A DNA stretch of 23,068 nucleotides from a virus: the IMG/VR virus record IMGVR_UViG_3300044535_002967, positions 1-23,068 of that record; one strand, given 5' to 3'. The translations under genes and the position numbers were made by a program. Position 1 is the stretch's first letter, and each line of letters opens with the position of its first letter. Positions 3,909 through 20,543 of this stretch are shown piece by piece. Below the pieces are notes generated by a model that saw only the letters and a list, made by a program, of their open reading frames with translations, ran no database searches and was not told where the DNA came from.

Positions 3909-3913
3909 CCTAT

Positions 3914-3920
3914 ATAAATA
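3914..3920 (-). promoter_or_regulatory. TATTTAT element before the DHH/SGNH fusion gene
   Basis: The coding strand reads GTATTTATATAGG directly before the ATG at 3908, with only 5 bp between the TATTTAT and the start. It follows the terminator at 3933-3960, so the fusion gene should have its own transcript with almost no leader. Confidence 0.5.
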
Positions 3921-3932
3921 CTTTATTAATAG

Positions 3933-3960
3933 AAAAATCCCCACCTTTAAAGTAGGGATT
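3933..3960 (-). terminator. Intrinsic terminator after the YceI-family gene
   Basis: On the minus strand AATCCC pairs with GGGATT; the stem extends through G-U wobble and A-U/G-C pairs around a small TTTAAA-centred loop and is followed by TTTTT. It lies about 30 bp after the YceI stop codon and before the fusion gene, marking the end of the 6369->3990 transcript. Confidence 0.75.
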
Positions 3961-4936: not shown

Positions 4937-5650
4937 TTAAATTTCTAATATTTTCCAATTTCCTTTTTTGTCCTCAACAAGGCATGTTGAGTTTTCACAA
5001 AAATCTCCTGAATTCATATAGTCGATCTCAATTTTTGGTTGGTGGATATGTCCGCATACCGCAACATCATAACCTTTTTCTTGTGTTAGTCCTTTTGCTC
5101 CCATTTCAAAATCAGAAACAAAATTGATGGCACCTTTTACAGATTGTTTAATGTTGTTTGCCAATGAATGGTATTTTAAATTAAATATTTTTCTGATTCT
5201 ATTGTAGATTGTGTTTAATTTAATAACAAAATCATAAGACCAACCACCAACAACCGCTAACCATCTAGCTTTCATAATAACAAAATCCAATACATCACCA
5301 TGGAAACAATAATAATTTCTACCATCAATTCCAATATGATTATACATTCTAACAATCTCAATATTATTTAGTTTGAATGGTATGAAGTCTTTTAAAAAGT
5401 CGTCGTGATTTCCTCTGATGTATATTACCTTTGTTTTACCTTCAGATAGTTTTATTATCTTTCTTATTATTTTGGTGCAATCGTTAGTCCATTTACCGTT
5501 AGTTTTGATTGCCCAACCATCAATAATATCTCCGTTCAATATTAAAGTTTCCATTTCATTTTCTTCTAAGAACTTTAATATCTTATCTGTTTGTGATTGT
5601 CTTGCACCTAAATGAAGATCACTCATTATCACAGTTTTCCACTTTTTCAT
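4937..5650 (-). CDS. LpxH-like metallophosphoesterase
   Basis: This 237-residue calcineurin-fold phosphoesterase carries all five metal-binding blocks in order: SDLHLG (D11, H13), NGDIIDGW (near 40), RGNHDD (near 80), FHGD (near 116) and CGHIHQP (near 202). The layout, with a helical insert between FHGD and GHIH and the ending DYMNSGDFCENSTCLVED, resembles the LpxH/UDP-2,3-diacylglucosamine pyrophosphatase-like group, which acts on a lipid A precursor. The exact substrate cannot be read from sequence. Its ATG overlaps the stop of the upstream GT2 gene (ATGA), so the two are translationally coupled. The pairing suggests envelope-polysaccharide or lipid modification during infection. Confidence 0.85.
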   Translation of the reverse strand: MKKWKTVIMSDLHLGARQSQTDKILKFLEENEMETLILNGDIIDGWAIKTNGKWTNDCTKIIRKIIKLSEGKTKVIYIRGNHDDFLKDFIPFKLNNIEIVRMYNHIGIDGRNYYCFHGDVLDFVIMKARWLAVVGGWSYDFVIKLNTIYNRIRKIFNLKYHSLANNIKQSVKGAINFVSDFEMGAKGLTQEKGYDVAVCGHIHQPKIEIDYMNSGDFCENSTCLVEDKKGNWKILEI

Positions 5651-6369
5651 TTCCAGTAATTTTGATCTTTAGTGAAGTAGTCTTTATTCTTATGGTTGAA
5701 GAATGATCCCAAGAATAGTTTTGCCATGTAAACTAAACCTTTGTGTTCAAATCGTCTTGGTGGTGTAAAAACTACATTGTTTATTCTACCAAATTTCTTT
5801 GGTTTGATTTGTTTGGAGAAGTGATAGTCTTCAGCTACTTTAATTTCTTCGTCAAATCCTTTTAAGTTTTTGAATGTTTCTGTTCTAATCATCATAAATC
5901 CACCCAAACAAAATGGTGTGGACCACTTTGACACTAACTGTAGGAAATCGAACAAACGGTAAATATAGTTGTATTTACCGTTATCACTTCTGAATTTAGT
6001 GGTGACCAAATCAAGATTGTTTTTGTGTATTCTAAGAAATGCCCGTTTAATTATTTTAGGGTCCAATAAAAATACATCGGCATCCATAAATAAAACATAG
6101 GGTGTTGTTACAAGTTTAAATCCGTTGTTTCTTGCTCTTGCAGGAAGACCTCCTTCCATTATGTGTAGGTCGAATCTGTCTCTTCCTGAATCATACTCTA
6201 ATCTATCCCAAAGATATGGTTTTGTAACTCCATCATTAGATGAATCGCAAACAACAACTTTTACATTCAAAATGTCTGACTGATAATTTAAAAGATCTAA
6301 TGTTTTTTCGATAATTCTCTTTTCGTTTTTACAAGGAATTACTATAGTTACTAGTTCATTTAATTTCAT
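5647..6369 (-). CDS. Family 2 glycosyltransferase
   Basis: This 240-residue GT-A fold enzyme begins LVTIVIPCKNEKRIIEKTL, the typical GT2 nucleotide-binding start, followed by VVVCDSSNDG, GLPARARNNG, and the metal-binding FMDADVFL (DxD near residue 96). An acceptor-side EDYHFSKQI follows GGFMMIRTETF. It should transfer a sugar from a nucleotide donor; donor and acceptor are unknown. It is short for a membrane GT2 and lacks strong transmembrane helices, though the C-terminal segment LVYMAKLFLGSFF is hydrophobic. It is the first gene of the group running to the terminator at 3933-3960 and is divergent from the uvrC-like gene. A TATATTGA sequence just upstream is an imperfect -7 box. Confidence 0.88.
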   Translation of the reverse strand: MKLNELVTIVIPCKNEKRIIEKTLDLLNYQSDILNVKVVVCDSSNDGVTKPYLWDRLEYDSGRDRFDLHIMEGGLPARARNNGFKLVTTPYVLFMDADVFLLDPKIIKRAFLRIHKNNLDLVTTKFRSDNGKYNYIYRLFDFLQLVSKWSTPFCLGGFMMIRTETFKNLKGFDEEIKVAEDYHFSKQIKPKKFGRINNVVFTPPRRFEHKGLVYMAKLFLGSFFNHKNKDYFTKDQNYWK

Positions 6370-6462: not shown

Positions 6463-7737
6463 GTGATTACAGAGAAACTTTCAAATATCCCCCAATCTAG
6501 CGGCTGCTACCTTTTCAAAAACAAGAAGGGTCAGATCATCTATGTTGGTAAGTCAAAGTTTCTCCCAAAACGAGTGAAGTCTTACTTTCAAAAAAACCAC
6601 AAAGATCAGAAGACTTTGTCTTTGGTAAATGAGATTACAGATGTTGAGTTCATGACTACTAATGATGAGAGTCAGGCTTTGTTATTGGAGGATGAACTTA
6701 TCAAATCACACAAACCAAAATACAACATAAAAGCAAAAGATGATCGTTCTCGTCGTTGGTTTATTACTTTGAGTGAAGATGAGTTCCCAAGACTTTTGGT
6801 TTGTAATCCTTCTAACTTTACTGGTGAGGTTCTTTTGGAATCTACAAGTTCCAATTCTTGTTATGAGATCTATGAAATGGTTCACGACATTTTCAATCTT
6901 AGATCTTGTTCTTACAACTTGACTGAAGAAAATATCCAAAACGAAAAGTTCAAAACTTGTTTGGAGTTTCATCTTGGTCGTTGTAATGCCCCTTGCGTTT
7001 CCTCTATTCTAAAGTTCTCTTACTTGAAGATTGTAAGTGAGATGAAAGATGTATTTTCTTTTCAGTTCGACAAAGTTCGAAATCGTTTGAAAAAGTACAT
7101 GAAGTACCACTCTGATCAAATGGAGTTTGAGCTTGCTCAGAACTTCAAAAACAGAATGGATGTTGTTGATTTGTTGGAGAAAAAACTTGAGTCGTTTCGT
7201 GTTCGAAAGTATAGTGATATTGCAAGATCTTTCAAAGAACAATTTGGTTTATTGAATGTCCCTACCCTTATCGAAGCTTTTGACAACTCTCATACTGCTG
7301 GTGATTGTCAGGTATCTGCTCTTGTTCGTTACAAGAATGGTAAAACCGATAAGTCAAACTATCGTAAGTTCAACATCAAAACTGTTGAGGGACCTGATGA
7401 CTATGCTTCTTTCGATGAGGTGTTAAATCGTCGATTCAATAGACTTTTAAATGAGAAACAAGAGTTACCCTCACTTGTTATTATTGATGGTGGTAAAGGT
7501 CAGTTGGGTGTTGCCAAAAAAGTATTTGAGGATCTTGGTTTATTGAATCGAGTTGACTTGATCTCCATTTCAAAAGACGACAAACACAGATCATCTACAA
7601 TTCACAAGATTGATGGATCAAGTTTTGATATTCCAAGAAGTGAGTTTGGGTTTTTGTTAGCGGAGATTCAAAATGAAGTTCACCGATTTGTTATTACTTT
7701 CCATCGTAAAAAACGAAGTAAATCTATTATCGGATAA
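6463..7737 (+). CDS. uvrC: Short UvrC-like excision nuclease lacking the C-terminal helix-hairpin-helix domain
   Basis: This 424-residue UvrC homologue retains both nuclease modules. The GIY-YIG domain (1-95) has Y16, Y27-V-G29, R37 and E76. A CLEFHLGRCNAPC cluster follows (166-178), then a UVR-like helix pair (about 215-250). The RNase H-like domain (270-420) has AFDNSH, VIIDGGKGQLG and NEVHRF, which supply the conserved Asp, Asp and His, and the hallmark VEGPDDYASFDEV. It ends right after HRKKRSKS, where cellular UvrC (about 600 residues) continues into tandem helix-hairpin-helix DNA-binding motifs. It should make dual incisions with host UvrA/UvrB or act more freely. The GTG start fits the family's N-terminus. 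Arginine codons are mostly CGN, unlike the AGA-rich neighbours, hinting at separate origin or expression. It overlaps the convergent gene by 11 bp. Confidence 0.92.
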   Translation: MITEKLSNIPQSSGCYLFKNKKGQIIYVGKSKFLPKRVKSYFQKNHKDQKTLSLVNEITDVEFMTTNDESQALLLEDELIKSHKPKYNIKAKDDRSRRWFITLSEDEFPRLLVCNPSNFTGEVLLESTSSNSCYEIYEMVHDIFNLRSCSYNLTEENIQNEKFKTCLEFHLGRCNAPCVSSILKFSYLKIVSEMKDVFSFQFDKVRNRLKKYMKYHSDQMEFELAQNFKNRMDVVDLLEKKLESFRVRKYSDIARSFKEQFGLLNVPTLIEAFDNSHTAGDCQVSALVRYKNGKTDKSNYRKFNIKTVEGPDDYASFDEVLNRRFNRLLNEKQELPSLVIIDGGKGQLGVAKKVFEDLGLLNRVDLISISKDDKHRSSTIHKIDGSSFDIPRSEFGFLLAEIQNEVHRFVITFHRKKRSKSIIG

Positions 7738-8392
7738 ACTTGGTGTCGTAATAAGTTGCAACATAATCAGCGTTAAGTAATGGGTGTTGATTGATTACTT
7801 GATCAACACCTTTATAATATTCTTCTGTTTCGTAGTATGTTTCAACATGTGGTAAGAACTCATCGATATACTCATTTATAGCTTCATTAACATCGACATT
7901 TTCACCATTTTTTGTTGCGGATAATGGAACAACGGTATTATCAATAGAATATGAGTCAAGATCAAAATTTTTGGTTTTTAAACCAACAGATTCTATATTG
8001 ATTACATATCTTCTATACCCAACAAATGGGGTTCCTGTGGTGAATTTAATTTCTCTTACAGAGTCGAAAACTTTTTGAATTTGATCCCTTGTTTTGTCGT
8101 TAAGATAAAATTCTGGCTGTTCATTCCATAATACTTTAGTAGTTAACTTAAGACCAACATATTCTTCAAACTCCATTACTATATCTAAAAGTTCCTCGTC
8201 TACTATTGAATAGAAATAAGAAACATCATTTGGATTTTCTATTTTAAATTCAATCGGATAATAAGGTTTATTATGTCTTTTTGATATTATTTCTTCCCCG
8301 ACTCTAACAGGAATGCATTTTAACCCGTGAAGATCAATTTCATCCCCCGCAAATCTTTTGAATAGTTTTAATAGTTTATCTCTGTCCATCAT
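7727..8392 (-). CDS. Phage protein of unknown function
   Basis: This 221-residue soluble protein is not recognised. It starts MMDRDKLLKLFKRFAGDEID, with a basic amphipathic helix, followed by mixed alpha/beta sequence and an acidic, tyrosine-rich end (ETYYETEEYYKGVDQ). It has one cysteine (in GLKCIPV) and no membrane segment. Its first ATG overlaps the stop of the lysozyme gene (ATGA), so it is translated with the lysozyme and may work with it, for example as a virion partner. Its 3' end overlaps the convergent uvrC-like gene by 11 bp. Confidence 0.7.
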   Translation of the reverse strand: MMDRDKLLKLFKRFAGDEIDLHGLKCIPVRVGEEIISKRHNKPYYPIEFKIENPNDVSYFYSIVDEELLDIVMEFEEYVGLKLTTKVLWNEQPEFYLNDKTRDQIQKVFDSVREIKFTTGTPFVGYRRYVINIESVGLKTKNFDLDSYSIDNTVVPLSATKNGENVDVNEAINEYIDEFLPHVETYYETEEYYKGVDQVINQHPLLNADYVATYYDTKFIR

Positions 8393-9300
8393 ACAAACAT
8401 TTCAGATTCTTTTTTCCTTCTTGCTTCAAGACCAGGAAAGTCATCAAACAAGTTTTCACTTGTTGTTAAAATTAATTTTCTTGCTAAATCAAAATCACCT
8501 CGTTTAACTGCTTGTATAAAATCAGAAGTTCTAATACCTCTACCCATGTTGAATGACATGGAAACCATTGCATCATACATTCCTTGTGTGATTGGTGGTT
8601 TGATTCCCTTTTCTTCCCACTGATCCAAAATTCTATTAACAATACTTTCAGCTTCTCTTAAATCATCTTTCAATAATGATTCAGCATTTTCTTTTGTGAT
8701 TGTTGTTCTACCTGGTCTTATCTTTGAGTATCTTGGAAGAAAATCAAAACCCTCTTTTTCATTAGGGAATATTGCATGACCATATCCAATGGTGTATGCA
8801 CCATCTTCAAGGTCATATGCGACCAAATTAGGTTCACCTTTATTAACAACGGAACCTTCTTCGTATTTTAAATGATCTATTAAACCAGGTGATGATTTTC
8901 TAATTCTTGGTGGTATGATTTTTTTGATGGTTTCTTTCTCGAACTGACTGGCTTTCTCTAATGCAGGTTCAACTTTTTTGTTGAGTTGTTTGATTGTTAA
9001 AAGACCTATGAAACTATAAAAAACATATTTAATAATTTTCTTTCTTAAATCAGGAGGAAGGTTTTTAATTTTTTCAACTAAAGTTTCCACATATTGAAGT
9101 GCGTCTTCCTTGGTTTTAACCCATAATTTTGATCTATCGATATCCTTTTTGATATTGGTAAAATCCCACTCCATGTCAGGTTCGGTTTTACCGTCCTCTA
9201 CAATTAAAGATATTTTGAAGACCATGTCGTCCAAAATACCTTCGTATATGATTCTATTATTAAATGATCTGAGTTGCTCTTCTGTTAATGAAACTTTCAT
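8389..9300 (-). CDS. Membrane-anchored GH24 (T4-type) lysozyme
   Basis: This 303-residue protein has three parts. Residues 1-21 are a leader (MKVSLTEEQLRSFNNRIIYE) like that of the zinc-ribbon protein. A single hydrophobic segment (about 90-104, IKYVFYSFIGLLTI) follows a helical region. Residues about 138-303 are a GH24 muramidase: KYEEG (E147 or E148, acid catalyst), an Asp in AYDLEDGA, T170 in the hallmark TIGYGHA, and QGMYDAMVSMSFNMG. It should cleave N-acetylmuramic acid-N-acetylglucosamine bonds in peptidoglycan. It is about twice the length of a simple T4 lysozyme. The internal membrane segment could be a signal-arrest anchor for lysis, while the leader suggests a virion-carried enzyme; both remain open. 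A TATTTAT lies 4 bp before the ATG. Confidence 0.87.
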   Translation of the reverse strand: MKVSLTEEQLRSFNNRIIYEGILDDMVFKISLIVEDGKTEPDMEWDFTNIKKDIDRSKLWVKTKEDALQYVETLVEKIKNLPPDLRKKIIKYVFYSFIGLLTIKQLNKKVEPALEKASQFEKETIKKIIPPRIRKSSPGLIDHLKYEEGSVVNKGEPNLVAYDLEDGAYTIGYGHAIFPNEKEGFDFLPRYSKIRPGRTTITKENAESLLKDDLREAESIVNRILDQWEEKGIKPPITQGMYDAMVSMSFNMGRGIRTSDFIQAVKRGDFDLARKLILTTSENLFDDFPGLEARRKKESEMFV

Positions 9301-9321: not shown

Positions 9322-9690
9322 CTAAACATATTGAACTTTTGACACACAAATATCTTCAATTCCAAAAAACTGTAACTCTTCTAATAACAATTTTTCATTA
9401 GCCCAACTTCTAAGTCGATTATTTAATCTTCTTTTATTGTTACTAACCCACCATCTTTGATTTTCAGAAATTTTTACTTTAACATCTAACTCATAACAAT
9501 AAGTTTTAATCTTTTTGTTGAAGATGTAAGAATAATGTTGCTCGTATTTTCTGATATTAACAATCTCTAGTTCAACATTTTCACTCCAAATTTTACAATC
9601 TAATTTGATTGGATTTTTCTTAAAAAGTTTTTTAACTCTTTTGATGTGATCGTCCTTGATTACTTGTCCTGCTTTGTTTCTGTTGTTCAT
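9322..9690 (-). CDS. Small basic protein, function unknown
   Basis: This 122-residue protein begins MNNRNKAGQVIKDDHIKRVK. The ATG at 9690 is preferred to an upstream in-frame TTG at 9705, because the -7 box at 9695-9702 lies between them. It is lysine/arginine-rich with alternating charged and aromatic strands (NVELEIVNIRKYEQHYSYIF, TYCYELDVKVKI) and an RWWVSNNKRRLNNRLRSW segment that could bind nucleic acid. No family is recognised and no signal peptide is present. It has its own host-type -7 box, unlike the phage-motif genes on either side, which suggests a different expression time. Confidence 0.65.
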   Translation of the reverse strand: MNNRNKAGQVIKDDHIKRVKKLFKKNPIKLDCKIWSENVELEIVNIRKYEQHYSYIFNKKIKTYCYELDVKVKISENQRWWVSNNKRRLNNRLRSWANEKLLLEELQFFGIEDICVSKVQYV

Positions 9691-9694
9691 AGAA

Positions 9695-9702
9695 CAAATA
9701 TA
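9695..9702 (-). promoter_or_regulatory. Bacteroidota-type -7 box (TATATTTG)
   Basis: A perfect TAnnTTTG on the minus strand ends 4 bp before the ATG at 9690, in the 24-bp gap after the glycosyltransferase gene. The spacing is the same as in the uvrC-like gene and implies a leaderless mRNA. No clear -33 box is visible. Confidence 0.5.
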
Positions 9703-9714
9703 CAAAAAAAAACT

Positions 9715-10677
9715 CTAACGCCTTGAACTTCTTTGAATATTTTTGAGTTTTGCTTTTTTTAACGCATTTGTCATATTAGTCAAGGTCTGTCTGTTGTTCA
9801 GAGTATTCACTTGTTGATAATCTATGGTTTTTGGTTTGGTATTATCGGCCATTTTTTTAGGAAGTTTTTCAAATAAACCTAAAAGTTTTTTGGATCTTTC
9901 TTCTTTTCTTATAAGGTCTTGTAATATCTCATCAGTATTAACATCATCAGAATTAGGTATTTCTAAGTCTTTATCGTAAAAAACTTCTTCATATTCTCCT
10001 GTCTTCAGTTCTTCTAAAACAATATCTTCATGAGTTTTTTTCTTACTAATCAAATAATATCTAGTTCTAATTTGTGAAGAATAGTTTGTTTCAGGATTTA
10101 CTGTTAAACTTTTTGGGTGTAATCTCCTATCAAATAAAATATCTTGAGTATGATTTAATCTAACATTAGTTTTATATAACCTACCCATAAAATCCGAATC
10201 AGCAGCAACTCTCCAACCTTCAAACCCATTCAAAGACATAAATTTATCTTTTAGAATACCAAAAACACCTTCACCATAAGCGAGTTTTTCGAAGTTAAAT
10301 ATTCTACCTTCACTTGTTTCTTGAAAATTAATGTACTTTGGTTTTACTAATTGGAAGTGGTCAAGTTTGTTACTAATTTCTTGGATCGCATTTTCTCTCA
10401 TGATGTCATCGGAATCAAAAAAGAAAAGTTTATCGTACTTACTTAGTTTTGCTAAGGTATTTTTGATCACATATGGACCATAATTTTGATGAAAGAAAAA
10501 GAATCTAACTTTAGTTGGGAATTTGTTTTTAATAACAAATTCTAAAGTTTTAATACAATTGTCAATTCCGACAAGGACTTCAAAATCAAAGGTAGAGTTG
10601 TTCTTTTCAATCGAATCGAACAACTCTACCAAGAATTCTGTATTATTATAAGTTGGAATTATAACACTTAAACTCAT
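9715..10677 (-). CDS. Family 2 glycosyltransferase coupled to the Thr/Pro-repeat protein
   Basis: This 320-residue GT-A enzyme begins [20 protein letters not shown], with VGIDNC and the metal-binding FFFDSDD (near residue 88). WRVAADSDFMGRL and RRLHPKSLTVNPETN lie on the acceptor side. The first 215 residues align well by eye with residues 207-420 of the two-domain glycosyltransferase at 13659-15281, so the two are paralogues. The C-terminus (about 260-320) is a lysine-rich tail with a DYQQVNTLNNRQ segment, matched by DYEKINSIFNKS in the paralogue. Its ATG shares a base with the TAA of the Thr/Pro-repeat gene (TAATG), so the two are translationally coupled. The repeat protein is the obvious candidate acceptor; this is inference. 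Confidence 0.88.
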   Translation of the reverse strand: MSLSVIIPTYNNTEFLVELFDSIEKNNSTFDFEVLVGIDNCIKTLEFVIKNKFPTKVRFFFFHQNYGPYVIKNTLAKLSKYDKLFFFDSDDIMRENAIQEISNKLDHFQLVKPKYINFQETSEGRIFNFEKLAYGEGVFGILKDKFMSLNGFEGWRVAADSDFMGRLYKTNVRLNHTQDILFDRRLHPKSLTVNPETNYSSQIRTRYYLISKKKTHEDIVLEELKTGEYEEVFYDKDLEIPNSDDVNTDEILQDLIRKEERSKKLLGLFEKLPKKMADNTKPKTIDYQQVNTLNNRQTLTNMTNALKKAKLKNIQRSSRR

Positions 10678-13607
10678 TATCTAAATGCACAACAGTTAGG
10701 TTGAGTAGGTGTAACTGTTGGGTAAGGAGTAACGCTAGGTGTAAGACTAATCGTTGGTGTAACCGATGCTGTAACAGTTGGTGTTGGTGTTTCTGTTGGT
10801 GTTGGTGTGTTAGTAGGTGTTTCAGTTGGTGTAGGTGTATTTGTTGGGGTTTCGGTAACCGTAGGTGTTGGGGTGTTTGTTTGAGTTGTTGTTACAGTTG
10901 GTGTGTTTGTCGGAGTTTCAGTAACTGTTGGTGTTGGGGTCTCAGTTGGTGTATTTGTAATTGCTGGTGTCTGTGTAGGTGTTTCAGTTGGCGTAACTGA
11001 TGGGGTATTTGTAGGAGTCTCTGTAACCGTAGGTGTATTTGTTGGAGTCTCTGTAACCGTAGGTGTGTTAGTTGGTGTCTCCGTTGGGGTTTCAGTAACA
11101 GTAGGTGTATTAGTTGGGGTTTCCGTTGGTGTTACAGAAGGTGTATTTGTAGGAGTCTCAGTAACGGTAGGTGTGTTAGTTGGTGTCTCAGTAGGAGTTT
11201 CCGTTGGCGTATTTGTAGGGGTTTCCGTAACAGTAGGTGTATTTGTAGGAGTCTCAGTAGGAGTCTCAGTAGGAGTTTCCGTTGGTGTATTAGTTGGAGT
11301 TTCAGTAACAGTAGGTGTATTTGTAGGGGTCTCGGTAGGAGTTTCCGTTGGTGTATTAGTTGGAGTTTCAGTAACAGTAGGAGTAACTGTAACTGTAGGA
11401 GTTTGAGTTGGTGTTTCTGTTGGTGTAGGAGTTTGAGTTTCAGTAGGCGTTGGTGTTAGCCCTGATGTTACAGTAGGCGTTGGTGTCATTGTATTTGTTG
11501 GTGTGACACTAGGAGTATTTGTTGGAGTTTCAGTCACTGTTGGTGTGTTTGTTGGGGTTTCAGTAACAGTAGGTGTAGGAGTCTCGGTTGGGGTTTCAGT
11601 AACAGTAGGCGTATTTGTAGGAGTTTCCGTAACAGTTGGTGTTGGTGTATTAGTTGGAGTTTCAGTAACAGTAGGTGTTGGTGTATTAGTTGGAGTTTCA
11701 GTAACAGTAGGTGTTGGGGTACTTGTAGGAGTCTCTGTAACCGTAGGTGTATTTGTTGGTGTTTCAGTAACTGTAACTGTAGGTGTGTTTGTCGGAGTTT
11801 TAGTAACTGTTGGTGTATTAGTTGGTGTTTCAGTTGGTGTTTCAGTAACCGTTGGGGTTGGTGTTTGAGTAAGTGTAGGTGTTGGTGTTGGTGTTGGTAT
11901 AAACTCTGTTAACTGACAACATTGGATTCCTGTACCACCTGGATCTCCTGCCCCTGTAAATGTAAGAGTCGTAAATGGACTTGTAGTTACAATTTCAAAG
12001 TACCCAGCACCTGCGGCTAAATTACAAGCTGTTGATGTTATCACATTTCCCGCAACACTCATACATCCTGTAAGACATTCATTAATAGAAACAGTTCCAC
12101 CATTTGAGGTAATTGTAACCGATCCTCCTGTATTCATACCATAAAGAAGTATTCTAGCACTTGCAACTGTAGTTGAGAAGTTAAGTGTGTAAGCAAATGA
12201 TCCTAAACCACCTAAAATTGGGTCATTTAACATATTAAATGTTCCAATATATTGGTAATAAAAATTATTAATTCCAGTAGGTCCTGTTTGTACTGATCCA
12301 CTACCTGATCCTACAACATTAATTCCCGAAATAGTTCTTGATGTTCCTATCTGTGGTAATTGTGATCTCGTATTACAACATGTTGAATCAATATTTGGTG
12401 TTACAGTTGGTGTAATAGTTTGAGTTGGGGTTTTAGTTATTGTAACGGTTGGGGTTTGTGTTTGTGTAACAGTTGGGGTTTGTGTTTGTGTTTGTGTAAC
12501 ACTTGGTGTAGGTGTTTGTGTTGGTGTTTTTGTAACTGTTGGTGTATTTGTTGGGGTCTCTGTTGGAGTAGCTGTATTTGTTGGTGTATTTGTTGGAGTC
12601 TCTGTTGGAGTTGCGGTAACTGTTGCAGTTGGTGTTGGTGTTGGTTCTTCACCTAAAACATTTACAACTATATTGTTATTTACCGCAGAAAAAGGATAAC
12701 TTCCTGGAATTAAGCCCAAAGAAGCGTAAGTTCCCGTAAAGTTTACACTTGTCGTAGTTAGTGAATTTGTCCAATATCCATTCGCAGGAGAGAAAGTAGT
12801 TTTAAGGTATATCCCTGCATTGATGCCAGCCCCCACTAATTTTATAGGATTTACAGGGTTTATATTGAACAATTGACTAAATTGACCTGTAGCAAATTGA
12901 AAAGGTCCAGGAGACAAAAGCTCAAATTTATTCGTGCTGACAGGCTGTATTACTGAGGGTATAATCTCTCTAAGTGGACCATTCACAACCACAGTTCCAT
13001 TTGCAGGGATTTGTCCTCCTCCTCCTATTGCAAAAGGTCCACTGTAAACCCTACCTGAGGTAGTCATAGTTACAGTATTGTTTAAATTTTGAGTAAAATT
13101 GATAGTCGCATTCTGAGTTGATGGGTCTACATTACCGACTCTAAAACTTATGTATTCACCATTTCCGTTAGAAAAAGTCCCCCAAGATGATCCATATATA
13201 CCTGTTGCCAACCCTAAAATCGCAAGTGTTGTTGATTGGAATATCATTGATCCTTGTAAAACTTGACCTGATTGATAACCAGGAGGAAGAAGAACTCTAT
13301 ATGGGTTGACATTTCCACCTACACTTACAATACCAAAAGGCAAAGTGTAAGTAGTATTTAATGGAACGGAAGTTCCAAAAGAACCACTCCACTTATAACT
13401 TTGTGGGATCACATAACTATCGTAAAGTACGGTTGAAGTTGGTCTAAATTGTATAGTTGGGCTTGTTGGTGAAAAAACTTGTGAATTGCTATAGTTCGAA
13501 GTTTGATTATTGAAAAACCCATATATAAATGAATTCAAATTTAATTGTAAGGTTGCATCGATTCTAACATCGTTACCCTGTTGAGTTGCTGTTATTATAA
13601 TTGGCAT
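10677..13607 (-). CDS. Mucin-like Thr/Pro-repeat virion-type protein
   Basis: This 976-residue protein has a beta-type N-terminal domain (1-318, rich in N, G, T, S), a short Thr/Pro block (about 320-407), a second globular domain (about 408-566), a long Thr/Pro block (about 567-968) and a six-residue end NCCAFR. The blocks are built from T-x-T-P units such as [12 protein letters not shown], so nearly every second residue is Thr. Vicinal cysteine pairs sit at three block boundaries: STCCN, IQCCQ and NCCAFR. It has no signal peptide. Long Thr/Pro stretches form extended stalks and are classical O-glycosylation substrates. Glycosyltransferase genes lie on both sides, the downstream one coupled. 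A tail fibre, head fibre or surface decoration protein is inferred; no adsorption domain is recognised. Confidence 0.82.
10699..11899 (-). repeat. Long Thr/Pro-coding repeat array
   Basis: About 400 codons of degenerate T-x-T-P units. All four Thr codons and several Pro and Glu codons alternate irregularly, so the repeat is much clearer in protein than in DNA. The reverse frame produces Val/Gly-rich open frames that are artefacts. Confidence 0.9.
12394..12645 (-). repeat. Short Thr/Pro-coding repeat array
   Basis: About 84 codons with the same T-x-T-P style but richer in Gln and Lys ([18 protein letters not shown]). It separates the N-terminal and middle domains of the mucin-like protein. 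Confidence 0.88.
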
Positions 13608-13622
13608 GGTTCTTTTTTTATA

Positions 13623-13629
13623 ATAAATA
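13623..13629 (-). promoter_or_regulatory. TATTTAT element before the Thr/Pro-repeat gene
   Basis: The coding strand reads ATATTTATTATA, 15 bp before the ATG, followed by an A-rich AAAAAAAGAACC stretch. It lies in the 51-bp gap after the two-domain glycosyltransferase gene and would start the repeat-protein/glycosyltransferase transcript. Confidence 0.55.
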
Positions 13630-13658
13630 TATTGATTCGAAAATAAGTTGGTGTTTCT

Positions 13659-15281
13659 CTATAAAAATTTTCTTTTATTCTTAGGTAACATCTTTTGAAT
13701 TAAATCAGTATTTTTTTTCAAATCAAGTTGTGGTTTATTGTTTTGGGTATTATTGTTTGTTTTATATCCAACACTTTTATTAAAAATTGAATTAATTTTT
13801 TCGTAATCCATTTTTTTATGAGATAATTCAATGATATGATTATCAGATACAATTGATTGTTGAGGTTTTTTTATTTCTAAAACATCTGTTTTTAATTTTT
13901 CAATTTTATTCTTACTAATAAAGACTTCAGACAAATTTTTTCTATCTATTATTCTATCAAAATTTGTGGTTGTTATTTCACTATACTTTGTGAACTGTTG
14001 TTTTCTTTTTCTTTGTAAAATTTCAAAATTATAAGATTGTCTTACCTTTGACTTATGGTTTGTTTCAGGTTTTATGGTAAGATTTTTATCATGTCTTCTT
14101 CTATAATATAAAATCTGATCAGTTTTTTTTGTTTTTAATTTGTTTCCCTCTTCTCTCATTTTAAATTCAGAATCCGCACCACATGACCACGGTTCAAAAC
14201 CATTATATTGATTAAATAGTTTTTTAGATATTCCCAATTGTCCAATGGAATGGAATGGGTTTATGTTTTCTTTTTTTATGTTATCTAAATCTATTTGGTT
14301 TGAAAAGTTATAAAATTTAAATCTTACAACATCGTGTGATTGGAGGTTGTTTAATGTTTCAGTAATGATATTTTCATGAAGAAGATCATCAGAATCTACA
14401 AATAATAATTTATCGGACATTGATATTTGTGAAAGAGAATTTCTAATAATGTATGGTCCTAAACTTTCATTAAATAAAAAGAATTTAACATAAGGTGGGA
14501 ATTCATCAAATTTACTTCGTAAAAATAATTTTGTTGTTTCGCAATTATCAACACCAATTAAAACTTCGATATTGTAATTTTTTTTAGCTCTTTTTACAGA
14601 ATTTATAAAATCTTCAATATATTCAACATTATCATATGTTGGTACAACTATTGATAAATCTAAAATATCTATCTCAGTTAGTTTTTTATCTTTATCACTA
14701 ATTTTTGATAGTTTATTTTTTCCGTGAATCACTAATCTTGTGTATCCATCATCAAGTAAAGTGATATTTTTTGTAATCTCACCCATGAATCTGTGATTCT
14801 TATCATAAACAAAATTTTCATAATTTTTTTGACATAAAGTCAAAAACATTGATATAAAATTATTGTTTGCGTAACTTGTTGCGTGATCATGGATTTCGCC
14901 AGTATCAAAGTTTAACTTTTGAACTTTGGAGTGTACTATAAATTTGTCTTGACCACTAATGTTTTTATGATATAGCTCTTGTATTTTTTCAATGTAATCA
15001 TTTCTCATCCAATCATCACAATCGTGTCTTGTTTGTATTTCTACATTGTTTTCTCTACAGTAATTTTTTATTTCGTCAAAACTTGAGAAGTATAACGCAT
15101 CTACAGTAAAGTGCGGTTTAAGTAATTCAACATGTTTTGGGTTAACGGTAAAAACTAAAGTAAAGTTTTTGTTTTTTTGACTGTTAACTGAGGGTGCGAA
15201 TGTTTTTTTCATTACTTGGAAATAATGATCAAATAGTTGGTCGTCCTCAAAATTCATTCTTGTAATTACCAAATGTTTCAT
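13659..15281 (-). CDS. Two-domain glycosyltransferase
   Basis: This 540-residue protein joins two putative glycosyltransferase domains. Residues 1-200 (MKHLVITRMNFEDDQLFDHY, with TRHDCDDWMRNDYIEKIQ near 86-100) resemble the putative rhamnosyltransferase-like group, in which an aspartate cluster precedes the acceptor side. Residues 207-430 are a family 2 domain: LDLSIVVPTYDN, IGVDNC, LLFVDSDD (near 296), and RRHDKNLTIKPETN, clearly paralogous to the enzyme at 9715-10677. The remaining 110 residues are lysine/asparagine-rich and end in a basic tail. It overlaps the RgpF-like gene by ATGA and precedes the Thr/Pro-repeat gene by 51 bp. Two successive transfers onto one acceptor would explain the fusion; donor sugars are unknown, and the rhamnosyl assignment of domain one is tentative. 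Confidence 0.82.
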   Translation of the reverse strand: MKHLVITRMNFEDDQLFDHYFQVMKKTFAPSVNSQKNKNFTLVFTVNPKHVELLKPHFTVDALYFSSFDEIKNYCRENNVEIQTRHDCDDWMRNDYIEKIQELYHKNISGQDKFIVHSKVQKLNFDTGEIHDHATSYANNNFISMFLTLCQKNYENFVYDKNHRFMGEITKNITLLDDGYTRLVIHGKNKLSKISDKDKKLTEIDILDLSIVVPTYDNVEYIEDFINSVKRAKKNYNIEVLIGVDNCETTKLFLRSKFDEFPPYVKFFLFNESLGPYIIRNSLSQISMSDKLLFVDSDDLLHENIITETLNNLQSHDVVRFKFYNFSNQIDLDNIKKENINPFHSIGQLGISKKLFNQYNGFEPWSCGADSEFKMREEGNKLKTKKTDQILYYRRRHDKNLTIKPETNHKSKVRQSYNFEILQRKRKQQFTKYSEITTTNFDRIIDRKNLSEVFISKNKIEKLKTDVLEIKKPQQSIVSDNHIIELSHKKMDYEKINSIFNKSVGYKTNNNTQNNKPQLDLKKNTDLIQKMLPKNKRKFL

Positions 15282-16006
15282 AGTACTATCAGTTTTTTGT
15301 TTTCAAGACTCACTAAAGACCCAAAGATTCTTTCCATGGCGTGGTTAATTGATGGTTCATGAACATAACCTTCAGGTGAATTGGTTAATATTTTATTGAT
15401 CACACTCTGTGTTAAATATTTTTTTAAAATGTCATTTCTAACCCAAAAAATAGTCCCACCAACAAATTGATGACCTTTCAAATCCGTTTTGACTTTCATC
15501 CAAGAAAATACCTTTTGCATTTGAGTTAAATTGACATGGAAATTGGTGTTATATTTTGCACCAATCATTCCGCAGTTTTGGTCTTCTTCAAATTTTCTTA
15601 TTACTTCATTAACATGGTTAGGATTGTTCAAGACTCCTCTCATTAAACCATGAAACCATTTTCTACCTCTTTCTTCAGCACTTTGAGCTCCGTGTCTCTG
15701 TAAATGTAAAGAAGGTGTTTTAGTTGATCCCAACCCTTTTTTTGTGTGGATCTTTAAAATGAGATCGTAAGATGGGTCTAAGTTTTTATAAACCTGTAAA
15801 AATCCACCAATATCCATTCCTTTGTTTTCTACAAAAATGATCTCAGTTTTTGGATTTGTTTTTTTGATGTTGTTTAAAAAACTTTGAGGGTAATTCTTTG
15901 TTAGACTAACATAAAGATCGTATTCTCTTTGTATGTTATTTAAATACAATCTGATTTCATCCAACATATCTATGTGATACAAATGAACGCATACAGCAAT
16001 TTTCAT
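15278..16006 (-). CDS. RgpF-like (rhamnan synthesis F family) glycosyltransferase
   Basis: This 242-residue protein resembles the RgpF family of glycosyltransferases involved in rhamnose-containing polysaccharides. Visible signatures are KIAVCVHLYHIDMLDEI at the start, VENKGMDIGGFLQVYKNL followed by YDLILKIHTKKGL (about 60-95), NCGMIGAKYN, and HQFVGGTIFWVRNDIL. RgpF proteins are usually longer, so this is a single compact catalytic module. There is no signal peptide or membrane helix. It overlaps the two-domain glycosyltransferase by 4 bp and starts 3 bp after the zinc-ribbon gene, placing it in the cassette that feeds the Thr/Pro-repeat protein. With the RmlC-like epimerase at 20046-20543 it hints at a 6-deoxyhexose such as rhamnose, which is inference. 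Confidence 0.82.
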   Translation of the reverse strand: MKIAVCVHLYHIDMLDEIRLYLNNIQREYDLYVSLTKNYPQSFLNNIKKTNPKTEIIFVENKGMDIGGFLQVYKNLDPSYDLILKIHTKKGLGSTKTPSLHLQRHGAQSAEERGRKWFHGLMRGVLNNPNHVNEVIRKFEEDQNCGMIGAKYNTNFHVNLTQMQKVFSWMKVKTDLKGHQFVGGTIFWVRNDILKKYLTQSVINKILTNSPEGYVHEPSINHAMERIFGSLVSLENKKLIVL

Positions 16007-16009
16007 TCA

Positions 16010-16321
16010 CTACCCCCCTCTTTTTTTTCTGCCCTGACAGTGTGCTTTTTGACTAAACCCTTTTGGGTTGTTACAGTTAATTGATTTTTTATATTTTTGA
16101 GACCACTTTTCATCTATTGGTTCTTTGGATAGTTTGGTTTTCCAAAACTTAAATAAGTTTTCTTTATCGTAAACCTTTTTTTCTTGGTCCCATCCACAGT
16201 CATGACAAAGATATGGGTGTGAGTCGTCACTTTCTTTTTTCCAAGAGTGTTCACACTTTTCACATTCAATCTTTTCGTTGAATATTCTATCTGCCTGTTT
16301 TTCTGATATTAGTATTTTCAT
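16010..16321 (-). CDS. Zinc-ribbon phage protein with NPKGFSQKAHC-type tail
   Basis: This 103-residue protein starts at an ATG at 16321; an upstream in-frame TTG is less likely. It has a leader MKILISEKQADRIFNEKIEC resembling the lysozyme's, a zinc ribbon with C20-x2-C23 and C39-x2-C42 (CEKCEHSW ... LCHDCGW), a lysine-rich middle (LFKFWKTKL), and a C-terminal module NCNNPKGFSQKAHCQGRKKR. I recall that last module as recurrent at the ends of proteins in uncultured aquatic phages, without a known function. The basic, metal-binding make-up suggests nucleic-acid or virion binding. It precedes the glycosyltransferase cassette by 3 bp and has a TATTTAT element 20 bp upstream. Confidence 0.78.
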   Translation of the reverse strand: MKILISEKQADRIFNEKIECEKCEHSWKKESDDSHPYLCHDCGWDQEKKVYDKENLFKFWKTKLSKEPIDEKWSQKYKKSINCNNPKGFSQKAHCQGRKKRGG

Positions 16322-16323
16322 TA

Positions 16324-16638
16324 TTAACAATCTGAATCATTATAAATACCAACTAAATAGTTATAGTATTTGTCATATATATATTGTTCAACCTCATCTC
16401 TTATTTCTATCATTGATTCGGGTGGTCCTTCATAATCTTCATCCTCATCATCTGGATCACAATATCCCTCATCACAATAATAAAAATGAATTCCCTGTAA
16501 AATACAAAAGTCGGCGTAGTCGTCTTCATCCTCAAAATCACAAGGATCCTGTATTTCTGTTTGATACTCTATTATATCTCCAATCTTTTCTATCTCTACT
16601 CCTCGTCTAAGTAATCTAATAGGTATTTCTTGATTCAT
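16324..16638 (-). CDS. Highly acidic small protein next to a nuclease-like gene
   Basis: This 104-residue protein is roughly one third Asp/Glu, concentrated in FEDEDDYADF and CDPDDEDEDYEG, with five cysteines and many tyrosines. No family is recognised. The start ATG overlaps the stop of the PD-(D/E)XK-like gene (ATGA), so both are translated together. The charge and coupling would fit a DNA-mimic inhibitor or immunity partner of that nuclease, but no structural evidence is visible. The C-terminus (EVEQYIYDKYYNYLVG) is helical. Confidence 0.65.
   Translation of the reverse strand: MNQEIPIRLLRRGVEIEKIGDIIEYQTEIQDPCDFEDEDDYADFCILQGIHFYYCDEGYCDPDDEDEDYEGPPESMIEIRDEVEQYIYDKYYNYLVGIYNDSDC
16342..16348 (-). 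promoter_or_regulatory. TATTTAT element before the zinc-ribbon gene
   Basis: The coding strand reads GGTATTTATAATG, 20 bp before the ATG at 16321 and inside the 3' end of the acidic-protein gene. The location inside another gene's coding sequence argues for selection on the motif. Confidence 0.5.
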
Positions 16639-17483
16639 AACTGAATTTTTTCTTTGGTTTTATTATCATAAATATTGAAGGGCGTTGCTATTATTACCCA
16701 ATCAACAAACTTATAATCTTGGTCGTAAGCTTTTGGATTTGCTTTAACTTGAATTGTTTTGGTTCCAAAGTCAGGATGAGACATAATAAGATCGGTTCCG
16801 TATACCATATCAATTAAATCACCATTACCGCCTTCGTACTCAACTTTAAATCCTTTGTCTTGTAAGTATTCTTTGACTCTTTGTTCAGCACTTTCGCCTT
16901 GCTGAGTTGTTCTTTGGATATTTTTGGTATAATCATATAACATGTTCGGATCTTCGAAGTACTCCTTAACCATATCTTCTATTTGGGATTTAATCCTCAT
17001 TAGAGTATTTGTAGGGTCTTTTATAACACCTTGAATTATGTCGTTGTTTTTTTTCTTATAAAGAAGTTCTGTTATAAGTTCGGCCAAATCATAATAATTT
17101 GTATTTAATTTATTTATCGGTTGCCATTCACCATTCAAATAAACCAACTTATTGTTTTCTATTTTATTTTTAATAAAATCTTCTTTTTCGGTTTCCGTTA
17201 TTTTTCCAAGTGATTCTAAAAAATTGGCACCATCAATAAACTTATTCTTTTGATCTTGGGGTATTTCAGTTTTTAAATCTTTAATCTTTTCATCAATAAT
17301 AGATCTTAAATTAAGACCATTACTTTTTGAAAGAAGACTTTTAAGTGATCCAATTTTACTACAAACAAACATTTTTTGTTTATTACCTGAGAACCTGTCG
17401 CAAAATCTATACTCAGGTTGATCTTCAGATTCAACCATTAAACTTTTAATTCTTTCAATATCTTCTTTAAGTATTTTATTCAT
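16635..17483 (-). CDS. PD-(D/E)XK-like nuclease with virion-type leader
   Basis: This 282-residue protein has an N-terminal helix (MNKILKEDIERIKSLMVESE) of the same style as the 136-residue protein at the left end. The middle (about 25-190) is helical and unassigned. Residues about 195-270 look like a restriction-endonuclease-fold core: GESAEQRVKEYLQDKGFKV (E200 on a first helix), D231 in VYGTDLIM, and TIQVKANP, giving D-x13-Q245-V-K247. Q in place of the usual D/E is known in Mrr-like members. It should cut DNA if active. The next gene, strongly acidic, overlaps its stop. The leader suggests packaging in the virion and delivery on infection; this is inference. Confidence 0.65.
   Translation of the reverse strand: MNKILKEDIERIKSLMVESEDQPEYRFCDRFSGNKQKMFVCSKIGSLKSLLSKSNGLNLRSIIDEKIKDLKTEIPQDQKNKFIDGANFLESLGKITETEKEDFIKNKIENNKLVYLNGEWQPINKLNTNYYDLAELITELLYKKKNNDIIQGVIKDPTNTLMRIKSQIEDMVKEYFEDPNMLYDYTKNIQRTTQQGESAEQRVKEYLQDKGFKVEYEGGNGDLIDMVYGTDLIMSHPDFGTKTIQVKANPKAYDQDYKFVDWVIIATPFNIYDNKTKEKIQL
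16668..16674 (-). promoter_or_regulatory. TATTTAT element before the acidic-protein gene
   Basis: The coding strand reads CAATATTTATGATAA, 29 bp before the ATG at 16638 and inside the 3' end of the nuclease-like gene. The spacing is the longest of the set, so this is the least certain exact match. Confidence 0.35.
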
Positions 17484-18669: not shown

Positions 18670-19503
18670 ATGGATCCAAATAAAATTCTTTTACTCGTAA
18701 AATTCACCAAACAAATTCATAATTCCTTGGAGGGTTCTTCTAATCCCAAAATTTTTAATACTGTTGAGGATATTAAAGAAGAAATCAATGGAGACGATTT
18801 TTTAAGTCTATACCTTTCCAAGTTAAATGGTTCTGAAACAATATATTTATTTTTTTCAATTTTTTATTACCACATATCAGGTGATGCTGCAAAATCAGTA
18901 AAGTATGTTTTAGAAAATCTTAAAGGTTACCAGTTCTTTGTATATGAAGAAAGTGGTTATATATCTGAGGATTGTGAAAATTGTGATGGGAGTGGTAAAG
19001 AATATTGTGATAATTGTGACGGCCAAGGTAATATAATTTGTAGATCATGTGACGGTGATGGTAAAGAAGATTGTTCTACTTGTGATGGATCAGGCCAAGA
19101 TGATGAAGGAGATGCTTGTGGTGAATGTGATGGAAGTGGCAATGAAATTTGTAATGAATGTGATGGAAATGGTGATGAGATGTGTTACAGTTGTGATGGC
19201 GATGGATATAACGATTGTTATAAATGCGATGGTAGTGGAAATATAGAAACAGATATCATGGGTTATGATGAATTCTTTGATAAAGTATATACCACAAATA
19301 AACTTGGTGATATGAATGACGATATTCCTTTTGAGGAGCGTTATTATAATTCAGTTGTACTCAAACAACCTTTCTTAAGACAAAGAAATTACAGAGAAAC
19401 CTACACCATGGAAGATATCCAACACGATTGGAATATAGGTGATGAAATATACGATCTAAACGATAATAACTTTGTTTTCTTTGGTGGTAAATTATTACTG
19501 TAA
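18670..19503 (+). CDS. Protein with eight DnaJ-type CxxCDGxG zinc-finger repeats
   Basis: This 277-residue protein has three parts. The N-terminal 95 residues are helical and unassigned (MDPNKILLLVKFTKQIHNSL). Residues about 101-193 carry eight CxxCxGxG motifs in tandem (CENCDGSG, CDNCDGQG, CRSCDGDG, CSTCDGSG, CGECDGSG, CNECDGNG, CYSCDGDG, CYKCDGSG). DnaJ/Hsp40 has four, binding two zinc ions; eight could bind four. The C-terminal 80 residues are unassigned (TMEDIQHDWNIGDEIYDLND). There is no J domain, so it is not a complete co-chaperone. The finger type binds unfolded polypeptide in DnaJ, so an assembly chaperone or metal-binding scaffold is possible. It stands alone on the plus strand with its own TATTTAT element and overlaps the convergent ferritin-like gene by 9 bp. 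Confidence 0.82.
   Translation: MDPNKILLLVKFTKQIHNSLEGSSNPKIFNTVEDIKEEINGDDFLSLYLSKLNGSETIYLFFSIFYYHISGDAAKSVKYVLENLKGYQFFVYEESGYISEDCENCDGSGKEYCDNCDGQGNIICRSCDGDGKEDCSTCDGSGQDDEGDACGECDGSGNEICNECDGNGDEMCYSCDGDGYNDCYKCDGSGNIETDIMGYDEFFDKVYTTNKLGDMNDDIPFEERYYNSVVLKQPFLRQRNYRETYTMEDIQHDWNIGDEIYDLNDNNFVFFGGKLLL
18970..19244 (+). repeat. Tandem array coding eight CxxCDGxG units
   Basis: Units recur every 10-18 codons with divergent DNA (TGT/TGC, GGT/GGA/GGG/GGC all used). The fifth unit follows a longer acidic linker (QDDEGDA), suggesting a duplicated four-finger block. Confidence 0.75.
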
Positions 19504-20045: not shown

Positions 20046-20543
20046 CTATTTCTCCACCAAATCTTTATCATGTATGATCACAAGTTCTTTTCCAAAGAAC
20101 GAATCTAACTCTTTAATTTTTCTCTCAATCTCAGGATAATCAGTCCAAACTTTAACTCCTTCGTTCTCAGGACTGTAATCATTATCAACCAAATATTGAA
20201 CTACCGAGTTTTCTTCGGTCGTTATAAATCCGTGAGCAAAATATCTTGGGACATACACTTCATCACCTTCATCCATTTCAAAGAAAAATACTTTATTGTA
20301 ATCTTCAGATACTGGTCTCATATCAATAACGAAATCCAATATCTTACCTGAAATAATTTTAATTAGTTTGGCTTGAGCATATTCGTTCTTTTGGAAATGT
20401 AACCCCCGAAGTGTGTATTTACGGGGGTTTACACTAATATTACTCTGTAACCAATTCTTATCTAACTTGGCAAGATCTAATGGACTGAATGTTCCTCGTT
20501 TATCTCTGAAAACTCTGTTCTCAATAAAATGCGCTTTCTCCAT
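20046..20543 (-). CDS. rfbC: RmlC-like dTDP-4-dehydro-6-deoxysugar 3,5-epimerase
   Basis: This 165-residue cupin matches the RmlC/RfbC family, which epimerises C3 and/or C5 of dTDP-4-keto-6-deoxyglucose on the way to dTDP-L-rhamnose and related sugars. Signatures in order are FRDKRGTF, TLRGLHFQ (H49, catalytic base), KLIKIISGKILDFVIDMR, VYVPRYFAHGF and YLVDNDYSPENEGVKVW. It is slightly shorter than typical bacterial RmlC (about 180). No other Rml enzyme is in the window, so it would use a host or phage intermediate. Its ATG overlaps the stop of the metallophosphoesterase gene (TAATG). It could supply a deoxysugar to the glycosyltransferases at 9715-16006. A GC-rich hairpin lies within the catalytic-site codons. 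Confidence 0.88.
   Translation of the reverse strand: MEKAHFIENRVFRDKRGTFSPLDLAKLDKNWLQSNISVNPRKYTLRGLHFQKNEYAQAKLIKIISGKILDFVIDMRPVSEDYNKVFFFEMDEGDEVYVPRYFAHGFITTEENSVVQYLVDNDYSPENEGVKVWTDYPEIERKIKELDSFFGKELVIIHDKDLVEK
20401..20429. repeat. Perfect 8-bp GC-rich inverted repeat inside the RmlC-like gene
   Basis: AACCCCCG (20401-20408) and CGGGGGTT (20422-20429) are perfect inverse complements around a 13-base loop. The hairpin spans the codons for NPRKYTLRG next to the catalytic His. It has no U-tract, so it is not a normal terminator. Confidence 0.7.

Follow-up and report, generated by a model that had tools for sequence, protein, structure and literature searches.

In this phage DNA a Thr/Pro-rich stalk protein lies among genes for glycosyltransferases (GTs). 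Among relatives of the virus the stalk and the GTs come and go separately, hence they are not one dedicated unit. In our opinion two independent cargoes have met in a variable island. The stalk would be a probable fibre, and the GTs would build or extend glycans on virion proteins and not on the stalk alone; we give this reading a probability of roughly 60%. An earlier note on this DNA had suggested that an acceptor and its enzymes form a system worth naming; since relatives show the four genes to be separable, they should not be named one system. The more general idea, that phages glycosylate Thr/Pro proteins, fares better, because stalks with the same repeat are coupled to a glycosyltransferase of family GT60 in many other phages.

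The window, that is, the whole stretch of DNA analysed here, is an entire IMG/VR fragment record of 23 kb from an uncultured phage with jumbo phage relatives. The same virus is represented by a longer record (G001, 28.9 kb; 99.9% identity). A sibling (G002, 28.8 kb) shares about 77-93% identity by segment, with blocks of identity to the window ranging from 56% up to 100%. The host is probably a member of the Bacteroidota. According to the available part of Perez-Hernandez et al. 2025 (PMC12619734), moraphages are aquatic jumbo phages of up to 307 kb with predicted Bacteroidota hosts, four core GT orthogroups and variable genomic islands, and some encode DnaK. The group of the window is like them in size, GT content and variable island, with DnaK in one relative (G054); the likeness consists of these traits, and the marker genes TerL, MCP and PolB fall outside the 23-kb window. 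Unlike the moraphages as that part of the article describes them, the present group has an island of this type, a stalk and tails on the GTs.

Genes of the island

The earlier note's four genes, their coordinates and both overlaps were recovered exactly from the ORFs and the DNA, all on the minus strand (Table 1). The junction reads TAATG where the stalk overlaps the GT2 gene and ATGA where the RgpF-like gene overlaps that of the 540-aa GT.

Table 1. Features of the island, its flanks and one further sugar gene (positions in the window)
Feature	Position	Strand	Evidence or remark
Phage lysozyme, conserved island flank	8389..9300	-	PF00959 4e-18; comparison anchor
Small conserved gene, lysozyme side of island	9322..9705	-	present in most relatives
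GT2 glycosyltransferase, 320 aa	9715..10677	-	PF00535 4e-12, 46.8 bits vs cut-off 23.3
C-terminal tail of 320-aa GT2	9718..9840	-	INYxxVN ... ALKKAKL ... basic end
Stalk protein, 976 aa	10677..13607	-	ORF
Stalk C-terminal end, NCC motif (NCCAFR) and stop	10677..10700	-	conserved in stalk family
Stalk Thr/Pro block 2, aa 571-969, repeats	10701..11897	-	composition, repeat motif
Stalk middle domain, aa 409-570, non-repetitive	11898..12383	-	AlphaFold2 pLDDT 92, predicted jelly-roll beta-sandwich
Stalk Thr/Pro block 1, aa 322-408	12384..12644	-	composition
Stalk N-domain, aa 1-321	12645..13607	-	common to all stalk-family members (iterated profile search, alignment)
Two-domain glycosyltransferase, 540 aa	13659..15281	-	Pfam: weak rhamnosyltransferase-like N half, GT2 C half
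C-terminal tail of 540-aa GT	13662..13829	-	[IVM][DN]Yxx[IV]N motif
RgpF-like glycosyltransferase, 242 aa	15278..16006	-	PF05045 E 4e-30; exchanged or missing in relatives
Small Cys-rich protein (CEKCEHSW...CHDCGW), other conserved island flank	16010..16330	-	alignment; comparison anchor
RmlC-like dTDP-4-dehydrorhamnose 3,5-epimerase, possible sugar-donor gene	20046..20543	-	PF00908 4e-35

The note had also counted four enzyme domains. The Pfam matches to RgpF and GT2 stand, but the domains are not four independent types, since the 320-aa GT2 is paralogous (31% identity) to the C-terminal half of the 540-aa protein. That half matches PF00535 at 9e-11 (42.4 bits against a curated cut-off of 23.3), and the protein's match to PF11316 (Rhamno_transf, 5e-5) is weak, barely above the cut-off. 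Between window and sibling the 540-aa GT is 95% identical with a dN/dS of 0.10, and the 320-aa GT2 has a dN/dS of 0.13; a tblastn search of INPHARED with the 540-aa GT returned no match. The 242-aa protein resembles the GTs of rhamnan synthesis significantly (105 bits against a PF05045 cut-off of 25). Unlike those systems, however, it corresponds to the C-terminal half of RgpF only (model positions 271-498 of 503), and no lipid-linked rhamnan pathway adjoins it. The RmlC-like gene has no match in the sibling. No polypeptide-GT family appears among the Pfam matches of the island GTs.

The stalk had been credited with about 490 residues of Thr/Pro repeats. Indeed we count 486, of which 47.5% are Thr and 22.4% Pro, with 106 TP dipeptides and no Cys, far beyond chance; they are not continuous, because the non-repetitive middle domain separates two blocks. 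In the stalk family the repeats vary widely in length, and the N-domain and the C-terminal NCC motif are constant. Solved structures that best match the middle domain are mostly carbohydrate-binding modules (CBMs) and related domains, at a level near noise (best E 6e-3, Z 7-9); among viral models the closest are those for proteins of Virus NIOZ-UU157 (E 7e-8). The model of the N-domain was too poor for a structure search. The stalk's only family match is to phrog_15511, a family of unknown function, and is driven by the repeats; tblastn of INPHARED with the stalk, the N-domain and the middle domain gave no match, the whole-stalk search being uninformative through low-complexity filtering.

Comparison with relatives indicates that the stalk is a mosaic. 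Its middle domain, compared over window 11892-12395, is only 44% identical to that of the sibling and 59% identical to that of a GT-less phage (L188), which suggests that middle domains are exchanged through the Thr/Pro repeats. Block 2, on the other hand, is nearly identical to the sibling's even at synonymous sites (dS 0.017). One could read the 98% amino-acid identity of the long stalk as strong constraint, but we rejected this reading, as synonymous sites are near-identical too; the low dS points to recent exchange instead. Given the block identities, the contrast between 44% and 59% and the near-identical long stalk, the protein looks like a mosaic, fibre-like protein with a CBM-like middle domain, and judging by this architecture it is probably part of the virion. 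It is like phage tail fibres with carbohydrate-binding modules in being modular with an exchangeable domain, predicted as a beta-sandwich and weakly resembling CBMs, and unlike them in its Thr/Pro spacers.

Stalk and glycosyltransferases in relatives

Relatives were collected with separate baits (the downstream GT2, the UvrC-like neighbour, gene 16010 and the lysozyme), and the interval from lysozyme to gene 16010 was compared in 31 sequence clusters, which became 30 genotypes after near-duplicates were merged and L207 and L183, both scored from partial intervals, were added. GTs alone were found in 19 genotypes, GTs with a stalk in 5, a stalk alone in 2 and neither in 4. There is no association between stalk and GTs (Fisher odds ratio 0.53, p=0.60), a p-value that is descriptive only, as the rows are related by descent and most records are fragments, in which GTs or stalks elsewhere in the same genome often go unseen. 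On the lysozyme tree the state with both requires five changes.

L150 and L158 form a close pair. A 5.2-kb segment with two stalk genes is present in L150 and missing from L158, and the sequences flanking it are 92% identical on one side and 87% on the other. The GT genes that border the segment in L150 overlap each other by 4 bp in L158; the pair differs by a clean insertion that placed two stalk genes between GT genes. Conversely, L188 and L274 (the latter a long branch) have a stalk homologue alone, without GTs, between genes 9322 and 16010. Close to the island there is one more GT2 (window 5647-6369), also in the stalk-only L188. Linkage of stalk and GTs is retained in the sibling and, with other GTs, in G028/L150, L207 and L183. 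The earlier note had proposed to look for conserved linkage in related phages and would have given up a dedicated unit if homologues of the repeat protein regularly lacked neighbouring glycosyltransferases. With stalks lacking GTs in two lineages, GTs lacking a stalk in most genotypes and no association between them, the claim of such a unit at this locus fails by the note's own measure.

A GT at the 9715 position is nearly constant in GT-bearing relatives (24 of the 31 clusters have one), and the other island GTs are swapped among GT2, GT7, GT25, GT9-like and RgpF-like types. The 9715-type GTs and the upstream GTs share a C-terminal tail with the motif [IVM][DN]Y-x-x-[IV]-N and a basic end, present in 23 of 24 downstream GTs and in 23 upstream GTs of different architecture. 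The profile of one tail aligns with that of the other across 23 columns (E 1e-7); a 272-kb relative has no protein with such a tail besides these two GTs. The sharing may partly be plain paralogy, given that the GT2 domains in the window are related. Tails are retained with or without a stalk and whatever the architecture of the upstream GT. We had considered them as a signal for docking to the stalk and discarded this idea, since stalk-less islands keep the tails; for the same reason we infer that they may dock onto one another or onto some shared partner.

Of the genes around the island, that for a UvrC-like GIY-YIG protein with a UvrC RNase H endonuclease domain (window 6463-7737) is more than 90% identical among relatives whose other genes are 50-70% identical.

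GT60 beside Thr/Pro proteins in other phages

The repeat motif of the stalk occurs in many viral contigs, in at least 120 stretches. A (GlcNAc) glycosyltransferase of Pfam family PF11397, which we take to be GT60 of CAZy, is encoded in 20 of 50 records with the stalk repeat and in none of 14 control genomes. An adjacency test confined to PF00535 in 50 records with TP stalks had shown little GT2 beside stalks; with PF11397 in view we judged it too narrow and dropped it. For a sample not selected on the stalk we used the enzyme as bait and took the best 80 of 503 GT60 loci, which are the closest relatives of the query. Among these best 80, a Thr/Pro-rich ORF lies immediately upstream of GT60 in 62 of 75 loci and no more than two ORFs upstream in 66 of 75 (27 of 30 sequence clusters), with a median gap of 77 bp between GT60 and the upstream ORF. 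Immediately downstream such an ORF was found in 0 of 79 cases, against 76 of 1035 for other ORFs. GT25, a 293-aa protein and HtrL/YibB come after GT60 in about 58-66% of the same best 80 loci. Examples of this cassette in large phages are L142:12206-14751 and loci L384-L463, and the TP-bearing protein of one GT60 cluster matches the virion structural family phrog_8510 (3e-16). At the L142 locus, which belongs to G042, the TP protein has 402 aa (12206-13414) and the GT60 beside it 415 aa (13504-14751).

Coupling of GT60 with these stalks in other phages is thus a matter of observation, and it also reaches the lineage of the window. In large related records GT60 occurs at a different locus. The next ORF upstream of it is a TP ORF in G067/G075 and G069, and in G053 TP ORFs lie beyond the neighbouring GTs. 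PF11397 was absent from G001 and G002, the records with the window region and its sibling, both of them fragments of the 23-29 kb class. Upstream TP-rich ORFs accompany GT60 in only 4 of 34 bacterial contigs, and its annotated neighbours in the jumbo phages XacN1 and RAS14 include no fibre gene. A search of PDB sequences with the GT60 profile gave no relative, and our literature search found no link of PF11397 or GT60 with phages.

GT60 polypeptide alpha-GlcNAc-transferases initiate mucin-type O-glycosylation in Dictyostelium and T. cruzi, and a related form acts in hydroxyproline glycosylation of Skp1 (PMC8724618). What ties the phages to the protist systems is the enzyme family, which in other phages adjoins Thr/Pro stalks of the same repeat type; the 23-29 kb records of the window's virus contain no GT60. 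We also considered a route through prolyl hydroxylation (PF13640) and gave it up; the domain was found in only 3 of 16 tested records, so Thr is the likelier acceptor.

The cultured Bacteroidota strain Jiulongibacter sediminis JN14-9 (L466:3945-8809) has a Thr/Pro-rich protein encoded with one of two divergent GT60 genes on each side; a carbamoyltransferase-like gene and an HtrL/YibB-type protein come next.

Possible roles of the stalk and the enzymes

As we see it, the first cargo would be an operon whose GTs lack membrane anchors; the 9715 GT2 and the adjoining GT bear tails, and the other GTs are exchanged. The second would be a modular Thr/Pro stalk, probably a virion fibre, placed between two GT genes of the first. 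Its parts would be the N-domain, the Thr/Pro blocks as extended spacers, a middle domain that resembles carbohydrate-binding ones and can be exchanged, and the Cys-Cys motif at the C-terminus. Most likely such a fibre would present its middle domain to a glycan of the host or the environment. The spacers may serve simply as extended linkers, or they may accept O-glycans. In the latter case the best candidate for starting the glycan would be a GT60 encoded elsewhere in such genomes, not an island GT. The island GTs, whose task would be to build or extend virion-protein glycans in general, could modify the stalk in trans or jointly with GT60. A functional link between stalk and GTs is possible, as five lineages keep both and the stop/start overlaps in the window suggest co-translation. 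The nearest precedent is found in mycobacteriophages, where phage GTs act on virion proteins and glycans sit on the C-termini of capsid and tail-tube proteins (Freeman et al. 2023, as cited in the available part of PMC12619734); unlike there, the candidate acceptor in the window is a Thr/Pro stalk.

A bolder version, which we hold tentatively and at less than even odds, is that many jumbo and large phages run their own mucin-type O-glycosylation. A cytoplasmic GT60 would act on Thr/Pro fibres, GT25, HtrL/YibB and other GTs would extend the glycan, and the stalk of the window would be one acceptor through a GT60 encoded elsewhere, with the island GTs adding lineage-specific outer sugars.

Low-complexity PT linkers commonly connect domains of extracellular proteins. 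The Thr/Pro blocks might likewise be bare, unglycosylated extended linkers between fibre domains, with the GTs unrelated to them, and the separability of stalk and GTs agrees with this. We nevertheless regard it as doubtful, given that the same repeat motif adjoins a mucin-type initiating GT in many phages.

Two further alternatives concern the GTs alone. Glycosylation of modified DNA bases is known for other large phages, and the island GTs might serve this purpose. GTs are core genes in moraphages, for which the available part of PMC12619734 names DNA glucosylation as one option, and the relative G028 has a thymidylate-synthase-like ORF (38407-39453, named by sequence recognition only). However, the island contains no identified DNA-modification gene, and free exchange of GTs between close relatives fits surface antigens better, hence we find this unlikely. 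Alteration of the host surface glycan, for superinfection exclusion or serotype change, would agree with the RgpF-like and rhamnosyltransferase-like matches and with the RmlC gene in the window. Against this, the island GTs of the window have no hydrophobic segments (maximum 19-residue hydropathy <=1.02, by hydropathy only) and no multi-span or flippase-like protein lies beside them, whereas Gtr-type serotype-conversion clusters combine membrane-anchored GTs with a flippase; in our opinion this makes the proposal quite improbable. That the island GTs build a short O-linked glycan on this particular stalk, as adjacency, the overlaps and the linkage kept in a few relatives would have it, is very unlikely in view of the many GT operons without a stalk, the two stalk lineages without GTs, the lack of association and the lack of a polypeptide-GT family in the island.

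If phage enzymes do O-glycosylate Thr/Pro fibres, this would be a phage counterpart of mucin-type glycosylation in which fibre parts and sugar enzymes are exchanged through recombination, and it would bear on host recognition and on the production of such fibres for study. The GT60-stalk cassette makes the question of phage O-glycosylation testable, and a related gene set is at hand in the cultured J. sediminis.

Some observations on other proteins of the window deserve mention. A protein at 18670-19503 has many CxxCxGxG-like repeats and looks like a DnaJ-type zinc finger, with no NCBIfam match. Another, at 2-262 (G001:433-1443), begins with MSTARPFAYNTGSTIAGT, its C-terminal part matches the virion structural family phrog_8510, and related proteins in other members bear Thr/Pro blocks. 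A similar short N-terminal peptide, of the type MKxLIRxILKEE or MKRIIKLTESDLxRIVKRVIxEE, stands on many unrelated proteins of these phages, among them those at window 1080-3944 and 16635-17483, G002:1-2857, G028:5002-9803 and ORFs of G053; perhaps it is a head-targeting leader that is cut off by a prohead protease.
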